DNA of 43,644 nucleotides. Origin: a virus. The notes under the pieces were generated by a model. It searched no databases. It saw only the letters and a program-made list of their open reading frames with translations, and was not told where the DNA came from. Position 1 is the first letter of the stretch, and each line of letters begins with the position of its first letter. The position numbers and the translations under genes were made by a program. Positions 27,644 to 34,831 of the stretch are shown here, piece after piece. The stretch is taken from positions 1 to 43,644 of IMG/VR virus record IMGVR_UViG_3300009420_000023. The stretch is one strand, 5' to 3'.

Positions 27644-27720
27644 TGGTCGGAGATGCTGGATTCGAACCAACGACCCTTCGCTCCCAAAGCGAATGCGCTA
27701 CCAGACTGCGCCAATCTCCG
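27644..27720 (-). tRNA. tRNA-Pro (anticodon TGG)
   Basis: The cloverleaf is complete: acceptor CGGAGAT/ATCTCCG, D-arm GCGC...GCGC, anticodon stem TTCGC/GCGAA with loop TTTGGGA (anticodon TGG, reading CCA and other Pro codons), T-loop TTCGAAT, discriminator A and an encoded CCA (27644-27646). It is 3 nt from the upstream tRNA-Arg. The 5' C (C1-G72 pair) is the usual mark of bacterial tRNA-Pro. Confidence 0.95.
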
Positions 27721-27723
27721 TTT

Positions 27724-27800
27724 TGGTGCGCCCGAAGAGATTCGAACTCCTGACATCTAGTTTCGTAGACTAGCACTCTATCCGGCTGAGTTACGGGCGC
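27724..27800 (-). tRNA. tRNA-Arg (anticodon ACG)
   Basis: The cloverleaf is complete: acceptor GCGCCCG/CGGGCGC, D-arm ACTC...GAGT, anticodon stem CTAGT/ACTAG with loop CTACGAA (anticodon ACG, which as inosine reads CGT, CGC and CGA), T-loop TTCGAAT, discriminator A and an encoded CCA (27724-27726). The A34 would need the host TadA deaminase. Confidence 0.95.
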
Positions 27801-30099: not shown

Positions 30100-32193
30100 T
30101 TAAAATGCGATTGGCATAAGTGTAGTTGAATACTCATCATCATCATCAGGTAACTGAGATTCACCAGCGTATCCACAACCATACATCGTGCCGTCGGTCA
30201 TTTTGACAAACAGACCGCCTTCAGAACCAGAGCCAACTACATAGAAACTTTCCGCTTTCTTACGATGCATTAATACGGGTGTAAACCAATACGTCGTGCT
30301 AGAGGTATTTCCTTGTGCTAGTTGTCCGTTACCACCATACCCGACAGAGTGCATTGAGCCATCCGCAAGTAACACAATGGTGAATCCATACGATCCCGCA
30401 CCACCATTTTGAAAATCTACAATTGGAGAACGTCCCGCCAAACCAAATGATTCTAATTCAGCAGTCACATCGTTTCCATTAGGATCAGCAAAACATTCAG
30501 TAAATCCGGTACGTTGTGTTGTATCAGCGCCTACACCTAATTGACCATAGCCATTGTAGCCGGTTGCCCACAATGTGCCATCAAGTTTAAGAGCAAACGT
30601 GTTGTTATAGTCAGGATTTCTCATCCAACCTTTTGACACATTAGAAAGAACAAGAGTCGGTGTATATTGGTTAGTTGTGCCACCATAGCCAAGATTACCA
30701 TAACCATTGTAACCCCATGTGTATAAGTTATTAGCATCATCAATAGCGTATGAAAGACCTGATGTACTACATCCCGTTCCTATGTCTCTTATTGTGATAC
30801 CATTATCGTAGAAATAACTAATCAACGTGGCGGTACTCAAGTTAGTAGTATTTCCTTGTCCTAGTTGACCCGTGTTGTTATAACCCCAAGAATAAACATT
30901 ACCATCACTTTTAAGAGCCAAGAGATGACTATGTTGGCAATCACTTTTAGCAATTTTAGTAATACTTGTTAGTCCACTTACTTGAACAAAGCGATATGAA
31001 TTTGTAGTATTCCCATTTCCAATTTGACCATAAGCATTATAACCCGCGGCGTGGACTGTACCGTCACTACACAACACATGATTTGACATGTAATTTCGAT
31101 TACCACCAGCTGCTGCGTATTGTGTGACTATCTTACCGTTAATGGAGTTAGCTGACTCTCCTGAACAATAGTATGGAACATGTGTGTCCGTGACATTACC
31201 ACGACCAACCTCTCCGTAGTCGTTCTGACCCCAAGCCCAGAAGCCACCATCTTCATCAATAGAGACTGATCCGTGATCATACATACCACAAATGTAAGTC
31301 ATCTTTTTTGAGCCAAATGGGAAAGCAACTGCCGTAGGATAACTTCTATCATAGATGTCTACACCACGTCCCGGACACCAGTTTTCACCACGTCCCCAAA
31401 ACCTGATACTTCCGTCGTCCATAAGGGCATTACCTTTACGGTACATTACATTAGACAATGGGTCTTGATGCCCAATCACCCGCATTCCGGCTCGACTATC
31501 ACTAGTTCCCCAATATGGAAACCCATTTGTATCAATCTTTAAAACATCTCCGGGCGCACCTGAACTTAATGAAGTCAATGATGTGCCATTATAATATATA
31601 AGATCACCGGGATTATTAGTTATATTGTCAACACCTTGAGCCATCAACGCCCAACCCGTGCCATAAGCTACGGTCGAGGATGTGTACTTTACGTTTGCGC
31701 GTCCACCCATTGCAGCGTGAGAAGCACAATAATAAAACAAAGTGTTAGGAGTAGTGGCGCTTGTTACAATTGTAACTGTTGCCCCGATATTACCAGCCGT
31801 TCCCGACGATGTAACACCGGTCACATACGCCACACCACTTCCATGTGTTCCATCAGCCGTAATAGAGAAAGCTAAAGGGTGTCCGGTCATAGTCGAATCA
31901 GCAACATTAAACACATAAGTTCCACCTTTTAACAGATGTAATGTGTCTTGTTGTGTTCCGTCTACAAATAATTTATTATCACCACCAACTACACCGACAG
32001 TTAGAACGTGGTTTGTTGTCGTCGCAACCAATGTCCCCGTTACAGTTGAAGGGTTGACGCCGGTAGTCGCATCAGTATCACACACATATGTGCTTGAGTT
32101 ATACGAGACTACATCTTGTTTATTATACGTTGTAGCGGGGGCGTAAACACCCTTCCAGCTAAACGCTACTTTACCTAGTGAAATTGTTGCCAT
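30100..32193 (-). CDS. RCC1-repeat tail protein with cupredoxin-like insert
   Basis: 697 aa. Residues 1-50 form a small Trp/Tyr domain (FSWKGVYAPATTYNKQDVVS) shared with the next protein. About residues 55-172 form a ß-rich domain with 'GHPLAFS' (His105) and 'LFYYCASHAAMGG' (Cys156, His159, Met162), the spacing of a type 1 copper site. From about residue 250 to the end there are seven or so RCC1 repeats ('WGYNNTGQLGQGNTTN'), predicted to form a ß-propeller. Located behind the tail fibre, it is a likely receptor-binding or tail-decorating protein. Confidence 0.75.
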   Translation of the reverse strand: MATISLGKVAFSWKGVYAPATTYNKQDVVSYNSSTYVCDTDATTGVNPSTVTGTLVATTTNHVLTVGVVGGDNKLFVDGTQQDTLHLLKGGTYVFNVADSTMTGHPLAFSITADGTHGSGVAYVTGVTSSGTAGNIGATVTIVTSATTPNTLFYYCASHAAMGGRANVKYTSSTVAYGTGWALMAQGVDNITNNPGDLIYYNGTSLTSLSSGAPGDVLKIDTNGFPYWGTSDSRAGMRVIGHQDPLSNVMYRKGNALMDDGSIRFWGRGENWCPGRGVDIYDRSYPTAVAFPFGSKKMTYICGMYDHGSVSIDEDGGFWAWGQNDYGEVGRGNVTDTHVPYYCSGESANSINGKIVTQYAAAGGNRNYMSNHVLCSDGTVHAAGYNAYGQIGNGNTTNSYRFVQVSGLTSITKIAKSDCQHSHLLALKSDGNVYSWGYNNTGQLGQGNTTNLSTATLISYFYDNGITIRDIGTGCSTSGLSYAIDDANNLYTWGYNGYGNLGYGGTTNQYTPTLVLSNVSKGWMRNPDYNNTFALKLDGTLWATGYNGYGQLGVGADTTQRTGFTECFADPNGNDVTAELESFGLAGRSPIVDFQNGGAGSYGFTIVLLADGSMHSVGYGGNGQLAQGNTSSTTYWFTPVLMHRKKAESFYVVGSGSEGGLFVKMTDGTMYGCGYAGESQLPDDDDEYSTTLMPIAF

Positions 32194-32204
32194 TATTTAT
32201 TTCC

Positions 32205-33914
32205 TTAAAATTTAACGGGTGAGGGGGTTGTGCCATACTCTTGCTCATCTTCACGACCAAGTTGACCATAATTATCGTAGCCGGTTGAATAGACGTTTCC
32301 ATCGTATCCTAAACCATACCAAGTGTTGTAGCTTGAGGCTTGTTGACAGTAGCCACCAACGACCCATTCTTTAATGGGTTTATTAAGTCTCATCAAGGTG
32401 TCATACTCACTACCTCTATAACCACTTAAAATAGTACCGTTGCCACCCACTCCCGTCAGGTTATAACCTCCAACCATGAATGATCCGTTAGTCTTTTCGA
32501 CCATCCAAAAACGACCATAATTAATACCTTGTGTTACAAAATATTTATTATTGTAACCAAATTCGGTTAAGCGTGTCCAGACGTTGGCTATTGAACCGAC
32601 CGCTGCGGCAGTCCCGCCCGTTCCCGTTCCCGTCATGTATCCCATGTACCACATTGAGCCATCATTTTTAATGCCCATCATGGTTGAATAGTTACCGTTC
32701 CAACAACGTATTTGCTTCCAATTGTTTCCATTTGCACGTCCATCGGCAATCATACCACCGGGATGATAAACCTTTGGGGTGACGCCGTATCCACCTTCAT
32801 TACCGCCCCAATGCATTATTTCGCCGTTTTCAAATAATATAACGGCGGTGCGATATTCACCCGTTCCAGACCCGTGAAAGTAAGAACCATGAAACACAAA
32901 ATCTTTTGCGGGGTATACGGCAGTTTGTGAAATTAAAGTATGTTTAGCGGATCGCCAATCAGCCACGGGGTATACGTAATTACCCGCGCTATTGTATTCA
33001 CCACAAATATACATTTTACCGGTCGCGTCTTTCAACACAGTTACCATGTAATCACCACCAGCTAAATAAGCTCTAACCATCGGCACTTCCGCTGATTTAA
33101 CCATCAATGTGGGAGTAGTGATGTTGTAGTCCCCACTATTATTTGTTTGAGTCCCAGCACAAGATTGTCTATTTTTACCCGTATAATACATTCGACCATC
33201 GTCGGTTCTAAAAACTGTAGAATAGGCGGCGGCTTCACCATTGTTCGTATAAACATCAGTTACTTTTGCATCAGCGGGAAGGTCACCTTGTCCATTAATT
33301 AGAACCGGAGTCCATTGATTTGTTGTTCCATTGCGACCAATTTGTCCAAAGTTGTTATAACCCCAACCCCAGACTTTACCTAAATGATCAATCGCATGGC
33401 AATGGTGTCCTCTTGGATATACATCCACAATACGCCCAGCACCAGCGGGGAAATGAATTTGAGTCGGTCTGTTAGTGTTCTGATCTGCCCGTGTTTTACC
33501 ACCAAGTGCGCCATAAATTGTACGCCCAACTCCCATAACTGTACCATCAGACATAATAAAATACATATTTTGATAACACCCCGTACCAGAGTTGTCTGCA
33601 TAGTCCATTTTAGGAAGCTTTGCGACACCTACACGACGAGGGTTGTCGGTTGGGAAAGCAAACTCAGGCGTCCCAAGACCGTTAATTTCAAGAGTTTGGT
33701 CTACAATACCAGACACTACTGTCGTGTCATCGGGCGTAAGTATCTCACCTTTTGCCGTACCGTTTTGTTGATCTTCTACATGTTTAACCCACGTAGTTCC
33801 GTTGTAAGCGTACATCCCCCCGTCCTTACGAGTAACGTCTCCGTCAACGTAGGTCGTGGTGGAAGAATACTCACCCTTCCAACGGTAGCCGATCTTTGTA
33901 TAGTCAATTTGCAT
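32205..33914 (-). CDS. RCC1-repeat tail protein
   Basis: 569 aa. The N-terminus 'TKIGYRWKGEYSSTTTYVDGD' matches the neighbour's N-terminal domain and probably attaches to the same tail part. The rest contains RCC1 repeats: 'GVGRTIYGALGG', 'WGWGYNNFGQIGRNGTTNQW' and, at the end, 'STGYDNYGQLGRE'. No cupredoxin-like insert is present. Together with the 697-aa protein it forms a tandem pair downstream of the T7-type fibre. It has a probable receptor-binding role, by analogy with marine phages. Confidence 0.75.
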   Translation of the reverse strand: MQIDYTKIGYRWKGEYSSTTTYVDGDVTRKDGGMYAYNGTTWVKHVEDQQNGTAKGEILTPDDTTVVSGIVDQTLEINGLGTPEFAFPTDNPRRVGVAKLPKMDYADNSGTGCYQNMYFIMSDGTVMGVGRTIYGALGGKTRADQNTNRPTQIHFPAGAGRIVDVYPRGHHCHAIDHLGKVWGWGYNNFGQIGRNGTTNQWTPVLINGQGDLPADAKVTDVYTNNGEAAAYSTVFRTDDGRMYYTGKNRQSCAGTQTNNSGDYNITTPTLMVKSAEVPMVRAYLAGGDYMVTVLKDATGKMYICGEYNSAGNYVYPVADWRSAKHTLISQTAVYPAKDFVFHGSYFHGSGTGEYRTAVILFENGEIMHWGGNEGGYGVTPKVYHPGGMIADGRANGNNWKQIRCWNGNYSTMMGIKNDGSMWYMGYMTGTGTGGTAAAVGSIANVWTRLTEFGYNNKYFVTQGINYGRFWMVEKTNGSFMVGGYNLTGVGGNGTILSGYRGSEYDTLMRLNKPIKEWVVGGYCQQASSYNTWYGLGYDGNVYSTGYDNYGQLGREDEQEYGTTPSPVKF

Positions 33915-33925
33915 AATCGTCTCCT

Positions 33926-34831
33926 TTAGATGGTGTATGCTAAGTTATTAGAAGTATCCACACCAAATGCGATATTCTCACCAAGTGTCCAAGTTTTATA
34001 ATCATTTACGTCAGCGTCAATCACACCATAATCTACTATGATTTCTTGACCACTTGTTGACATTTTAAGTCCAAAGAATTGAGGAACTGCTACAGAGTTA
34101 ACAAGATCATAGCCCGTCCCCGCACTATTAATTTTTAAGAAATAATTAGCAGTTAATGTTCCCGGAAGTCCAGCAACAGACAGAGCCGCTTCTGCCGCGA
34201 CTTGTGCCGCTTCCGCAGCAACTTTTGCAGCTTCAGCCGCAACTTTGTCCGCAGTAGCACCTGACGAATCACTCGCGTATCCTTCAGCTAGTGTAGCTTG
34301 AGCAGTTGCAATAACTGCTTGAGCGGTTGCAGTTGATACTTGTGTGGCAGTAGCAGAGAGAACGTATGATTTATTAGCAGCGTCGGTGTCGTCCACCGGG
34401 GTTGCCAAGTTAATAATACGAGATGTACCAGCGTCCCAATTGTTAGCAGAGTTACGAGCCATCGCAACTTCTTTAATGTCGTTCGCTTCTTGTGCTAGGT
34501 AAAATCCTTGCAAACTATCTTGGTCGAGAATCTCTTCAGAAAGAACTGATCCCGTCTGATAATCCACAAGTCGTGTTCCCGGAGAAGTCTCACGTTGGAA
34601 CACCATTGAATCACCAATAGCGGCGGGTGTGGTTAGAATGATTCGACTAGATAAAGAAGCGTCAAATTGATAGTCACCTACTACCGAAGCAGTAGATTGT
34701 GATAATAGTGTACCGTTTTTATAAACGAGAACGTGACCTTGAGCAATGTACGGGAAGGGGATATCGAAGTGCGTCGCATCAGTTCCCGCCAAGCTAGTCA
34801 CCGCAACCACTTCACGTGCAAAAGCTGTCAT
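33926..34831 (-). CDS. Tail fibre (T7 gp17 N-terminal type)
   Basis: 301 aa. The N-terminal 150 residues have the T7 gp17 attachment domain: 'DATHFDIPFPYIAQGHVLVYKNGTLL', 'IILTTPAAIGDSMVFQRETS', 'DQDSLQGFYLAQEANDI'. A coiled-coil Ala-rich shaft follows (about 165-220, AAEAAKVAAEAAQVAAEAA), then a short ß-rich end. It lacks the large receptor-binding C-terminus of gp17 (553 aa), so it is probably an adaptor that holds the RCC1 proteins encoded next. Confidence 0.88.
   Translation of the reverse strand: MTAFAREVVAVTSLAGTDATHFDIPFPYIAQGHVLVYKNGTLLSQSTASVVGDYQFDASLSSRIILTTPAAIGDSMVFQRETSPGTRLVDYQTGSVLSEEILDQDSLQGFYLAQEANDIKEVAMARNSANNWDAGTSRIINLATPVDDTDAANKSYVLSATATQVSTATAQAVIATAQATLAEGYASDSSGATADKVAAEAAKVAAEAAQVAAEAALSVAGLPGTLTANYFLKINSAGTGYDLVNSVAVPQFFGLKMSTSGQEIIVDYGVIDADVNDYKTWTLGENIAFGVDTSNNLAYTI

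Follow-up and report, generated by a model that had tools for sequence, protein, structure and literature searches.

Residues 62-170 of a 697-amino acid tail protein, encoded on a 43.6-kb virus contig, most likely belong to a true cupredoxin subfamily that tail proteins have acquired as an extracellular module. Homology to the plastocyanin/azurin group, together with a conserved His and a Cys-x2-His-x2-Met motif at the spacing of the amicyanin loop, is supported by sequence comparison, and the reading of the domain as a whole as a metal-binding cupredoxin, with binding predicted from sequence and structural models, appears reasonably likely.

The tail protein and its gene neighbourhood

The window analysed here is the whole of the IMG/VR virus record IMGVR_UViG_3300009420_000023 (43,644 nucleotides). 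It encodes a head-tail adaptor, a major head protein, a large terminase subunit and an RNA polymerase, as well as a DNA polymerase, a primase/helicase and a ribonucleotide reductase. Because of this gene content, which also includes a T7-type tail fibre protein, the source, a marine virus of bacteria, is read here as a T7-like podovirus. Two tRNA genes lie side by side at positions 27647-27800, and part of one of them resembles (92-98%) the tRNA-Pro of cyanophage S-H38 and of Rhizobium phages.

The 697-amino acid protein is assigned to the phage tail proteins by its homology to tail proteins and its place among tail genes. It matches PHROG tail fibre families over residues 11-232 as well as the Pfam families RCC1 and WD40_RLD, its relatives are annotated as virion structural proteins, and the gene for the T7-type tail fibre N-terminal protein lies two genes away. 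A second gene encoding an RCC1 propeller is directly adjacent, and a similar SWKG/RWKG...TTY...V segment is found at the start of both proteins; the start segment of the 697-amino acid protein resembles carbohydrate-binding module family 5/12. Features of the window, with coordinates and strand, are:

30100-32193, minus strand: 697-amino acid tail protein with a short N-terminal segment, a cupredoxin-like domain and an RCC1 propeller (from ORF, Pfam and PHROG)
32053-32145, minus strand: weak CBM_5_12-like stretch, residues 17-47 (Pfam E 5.7e-4 with the N-terminal 190 residues as query, below the cut-off)
31684-32010, minus strand: cupredoxin-like domain, residues 62-170 (family profile E 6.7e-41; AlphaFold pLDDT 88.9 and 93.0; PDB matches)
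31879-31881, minus strand: codon of His105, putative equatorial copper ligand (kept in 208 of 221 copies not selected for ligands)
31843-31845, minus strand: codon of His117 in the TADGTHG loop, conserved but probably no ligand
31726-31728, minus strand: codon of Cys156, putative equatorial copper ligand (203 of 221)
31717-31719, minus strand: codon of His159, putative equatorial copper ligand (201 of 221)
31708-31710, minus strand: codon of Met162, putative axial copper ligand (197 of 221; Gln or Lys in 4 copies with the other three ligands)
30100-31461, minus strand: RCC1 propeller, about residues 245-697, limits approximate (Pfam WD40_RLD E 4.4e-68, RCC1 E 1.4e-31)
32205-33914, minus strand: neighbouring RCC1 protein of 569 amino acids, without a cupredoxin-like domain (Pfam RCC1)
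33926-34831, minus strand: T7-type tail fibre N-terminal protein of 301 amino acids (Pfam PF03906, E 8.5e-24)

An initial annotation of this DNA had described His105 and Cys156-x2-His159-x2-Met162 in the 697-amino acid RCC1 protein, and these residues are present exactly as described, with His105 within GHPLAFS and the other three within FYYCASHAAMGG. The domain that it placed at 31706-32031 is likewise present, although this span is off by about 20 bases relative to the limits defined by the family profile. Run against all six reading frames of the window, the profile gave a single match (E 6.7e-41), and it had no significant match in the neighbouring RCC1 protein, in agreement with the earlier observation that this neighbour lacks the domain.

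Fold and relationship to copper-protein families

Structure prediction and comparison with cupredoxins, proposed in the initial annotation as a check, gave a confident beta-sandwich whose best PDB matches are cupredoxins. The AlphaFold models comprise nine strands, with a mean pLDDT of 88.9 from 16 sequences and 93.0 from 96 sequences. In a fold search against 350,542 PDB chains, the first model returned nine matches at E ≤ 0.001, namely eight rusticyanin entries (best E 3.9e-5) and the Hyphomicrobium nitrite reductase, while the second ranked the same proteins on top with lower significance (E 9.9e-4 and 1.4e-3). SO1698, an aspartic peptidase according to its PDB description, is also among the fold matches and represents the best rival fold. 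The modelled domain displays the Greek-key beta-sandwich of about 100 residues expected of a cupredoxin, at TM-scores against PDB chains of just 0.4-0.58, the deeper model scoring lower than the shallower one. By strand assignment, the putative ligands occupy the same places as in cupredoxins: the first His immediately precedes a strand, Cys ends the penultimate strand, and His and Met lie in the next loop, an arrangement compatible with all four meeting at one point. From sequence and models, residues 62-170 very probably have the cupredoxin fold. Matches in BFVD include a 'beta-sandwich protein' of Marseillevirus- and Pithovirus-type giant viruses (E about 1e-6, 18-22% identity).

Among 96 relatives of the domain, 17 match Pfam PF00127 (Copper-bind) at E ≤ 0.1 (best 2.4e-5), and three match the NCBIfam plastocyanin model TIGR02656 (best 1.5e-4). 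One domain of the proximal tail fibre of cyanophage P-SSM2 exceeds the curated Copper-bind cut-off, with 23.3 bits against 21.2. Pfam PF25489 (At5g54830-like) also matches 17 of the 96 relatives (best 3e-5), the next family having 11 weak matches. When a SAR86 genome is scanned with the Copper-bind model, its copy of the phage domain scores E 0.0097, short of the cut-off. Matching the family profile to four Copper-bind proteins encoded in cellular genomes aligned all four ligands (His, Cys, His and Met) at E 1.6e-5, a value that weakened to 0.0076 once one intermediate sequence (L311) was left out. The whole window protein has no match to Copper-bind at E ≤ 10, and the window domain matches PF25489 at E 0.005 (residues 20-119 of a 129-amino acid query), with 17.3 bits against a cut-off of 27. 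When the PDB was searched by sequence, neither the window domain by itself nor a 16-row profile found anything but noise (for example antibodies and DGCR8), and a 96-row profile placed plastocyanins on top at a non-significant E of 0.11. Because the window sequence alone falls below every copper-family cut-off, the domain is not filed as a member of PF00127; the family is filed as a cupredoxin subfamily because of the combined evidence.

Ligand conservation and the predicted metal site

Conservation was assessed in 322 non-redundant domains, no pair of which exceeds 85% identity. All four ligands are present in 295 of them and none in 15, while 4 have His-Cys-His with Met replaced by Gln (3) or Lys (1) and 8 have one or two ligands. 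As the search pattern of the first family scans itself included Cys-x2-His, the ligand counts of those scans are biased. A subset of 221 domains was therefore drawn from three search patterns without any ligand or from cultured phages; here 197 carry all four ligands, 12 carry none, 4 have His-Cys-His with Gln or Lys in place of Met, and 8 have one or two, several of these last rows stopping near the Cys column of the alignment, where His and Met are unreadable. An early count of 173 full copies, 5 without ligands and no partial copies was dropped, since partial copies exist. All four ligands are also present in each of seven gp9/gp10-type cyanophage sequences chosen as a spread sample.

In an alignment of several hundred family members, the four ligand columns rank among the best conserved, and because of this conservation a chance motif was rejected, as was the outcome, named beforehand as a refutation, that the ligands would not be conserved among homologues. 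In both the window and the family, a first His is followed, around the final loop, by Cys, His and Met, with Gln in place of Met in a few copies of the family. Fold search, profile comparison and ligand conservation thus concur with the original suggestion of a cupredoxin-like fold bearing the ligand set of a type 1 copper site. The conserved His117 of the TADGTHG loop was considered as a fifth ligand and rejected because it is absent in a close relative (L004) that has all four ligands and present in copies without any.

Partial copies in the 221-domain subset number 12, compared to 66 expected if the sites were independent, and 10,000 column shuffles, in which sequences are treated as independent though related, never gave fewer than 56. 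On a tree, each ligand changes at least 10-13 times and the His of TADGTHG 27 times, with no more than three supported independent pairs bearing on joint loss. Most core positions vary more than the ligands do, the ligands tend to be retained or lost as a set, and the change from Met to Gln retains a possible axial ligand; these points make it distinctly unlikely that the domain is a cupredoxin-derived structural module that binds no metal and retains His, Cys, His and Met for packing. Such a reading would draw on the copies that have none of the four ligands in otherwise similar proteins, and on the assembly of phage proteins in the cytosol, which is copper-poor. The ligand-less copies show that some uses of the domain do without metal, and that the fold can do part of its job in the absence of it.

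Natural type 1 sites with an axial Gln are known, stellacyanin being an example. The copies that combine His-Cys-His with Gln (L479:8347-10281, L470:1-1977 and L510:9582-11057) have a longer insert ahead of the Cys strand, and the first of these also has a T4 gp9/gp10 N-terminal domain. Another RCC1 protein (L464:5720-9814), unlike that of the window, contains a cupredoxin-like domain in which most ligands are lost.

A ligand set alone does not fix which metal is bound, and cupredoxin sites take zinc and other ions in vitro, both of which would suit a virion site occupied by zinc, nickel, iron or whatever ion is at hand. This is nonetheless quite improbable, given that a His-Cys-His-Met set with changes from Met to Gln is typical of type 1 copper sites. 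The domain is predicted to bind metal, mostly copper, and this is quite likely.

Distribution among phages and cells

The initial annotation had considered such a domain unusual at a tail tip, but it recurs widely among marine phages, in proteins of both tail and baseplate. By protein search it was detected in 260 phage records, nearly all from phages of marine bacteria, with hosts including Synechococcus, Prochlorococcus, Pelagibacter and Methylophilales; among the annotated genes are tail fibres, virion structural proteins and baseplate wedge tail fibre connectors. A search with the form in S-ShM2 gp9 returned 326 records, almost all of them cyanophages. Other IMG/VR contigs contain copies of the domain that are either nearly identical or 80% identical, and cultured phages that carry it include S-TIM5, S-ShM2 and HTVC028P. 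In 195 complete ORFs from viral contigs and phages, the place of the domain ranges from the N-terminus to the C-terminus, including the middle. In two baseplate-type proteins, the S-ShM2 baseplate wedge subunit (L518:2816-5302) and L450:7537-11079, the domain directly precedes a YHYH domain (Pfam PF14240; E about 2e-23 and 4.5e-23, respectively), and in the latter the axial Met is replaced by Lys.

Scanning of bacterial and archaeal genomes also revealed the domain. Many of these proteins, from SAR86, SAR92 and Marine Group II, have a lipoprotein-like start, placing the cellular copies in exported lipoproteins, the normal workplace of cupredoxins; other matches look like phage genes on contigs filed under the host. 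Two Cellvibrionales proteins (L187 and L176) have two or three domains in tandem, with an apparent signal peptide and what looks like a C-terminal membrane anchor. The subfamily would thus be one used by marine phages and by some marine bacteria and archaea in extracellular proteins.

A possible role in the tail

If the domain is a metal-binding cupredoxin, a copper ion taken up in the lysate or in sea water would be bound in type 1 geometry. Copper might then mainly clamp the His strand to the Cys/His/Met loop, making the domain a stiff, stable link from the N-terminal end, which is probably anchored in the virion, to the RCC1 propeller as the likely cell-contacting part. Among the possible roles, this stabilising one as a metal clamp is tentatively favoured.

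Alternatively, copper could serve in host contact, with the loaded domain being recognised by, or delivering copper to, a component of the host surface. The location of the domains in tail fibres and tail fibre connectors would allow this, and the idea is modelled on the iron Trojan horse proposed for phage tails, in which iron-binding tail fibres have a proposed receptor role (PMC11705849). However, the place of the domain within the protein is variable, connectors such as gp9 are not expected to make the first cell contact, and ligand-less domains persist, so that a role in host contact is rather unlikely. A redox function, in which the domain accepts or donates an electron, or carries out an oxidation, at the cell surface, is highly improbable: the nearest solved relatives are electron carriers or copper enzymes, yet the tail proteins scanned revealed neither a redox partner nor a catalytic domain.

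Copper has apparently never been looked for in tail or baseplate proteins with this domain, and the literature searched, drawn mostly from journals open without subscription, yielded no description of a cupredoxin domain in phage virions, tails or baseplates. A bolder and unlikely proposal makes cupredoxin domains loaded with copper a regular working part of abundant ocean phages' tails, in the gp9-type connectors of cyanomyoviruses, the tail fibres of pelagiphages and those of podoviruses like the source virus, and holds that copper matters for attachment or infection, tying infectivity to copper in seawater. Should the domain bind copper, some very abundant marine viruses would have copper proteins as tails, copper would be a second metal besides iron proposed for phage tails, and virions would be a possible pool of bound copper in the ocean. 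Copper dependence of infection would then be testable in cyanophages and pelagiphages, for which cultured carriers exist, and the lipoproteins of SAR86, SAR92 and Marine Group II that contain the domain would join them as candidate copper proteins so far lacking annotation.

Comparison with known systems

Cupredoxins are well known from photosynthesis and respiration as blue copper proteins, and cyanophages are known to carry plastocyanin as an auxiliary gene. The best PDB fold matches of the phage domain, rusticyanin (1rcy) and the cupredoxin part of the Hyphomicrobium nitrite reductase (2dv6), share about 20% identity with it over the fold alignment, and the ligand loop is longer in rusticyanin than in the phage domain. 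The loop of amicyanin, given as CTPHPFM by the title of PDB entry 2vmj, has the same Cys-x2-His-x2-Met spacing but differs in sequence from both the window (CASHAAM) and the family consensus (C-T-N-H-S-G-M).

With the plastocyanin/azurin family (PF00127, TIGR02656), the phage domain has in common the beta-sandwich and the arrangement of its four ligands along the strands. It differs in that the window sequence lies below the cut-offs of these models, in an extra conserved loop (ADGTHGSG), and in being fused into virion proteins, whereas plastocyanin and azurin are free electron carriers. The At5g54830-like domain (PF25489) matches relatives of the phage domain, but the window sequence falls below its cut-off as well. 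Among phage proteins, the closest parallel is provided by the iron-binding HxH tail fibres, such as T4 gp37 and that of Alteromonas phage R22Y, in which a metal site in a phage tail fibre has likewise been proposed or shown (PMC11705849). In contrast to the cupredoxin-like domain described here, these are trimeric fibres with octahedral iron sites formed by paired histidines, and they have no cupredoxin fold.
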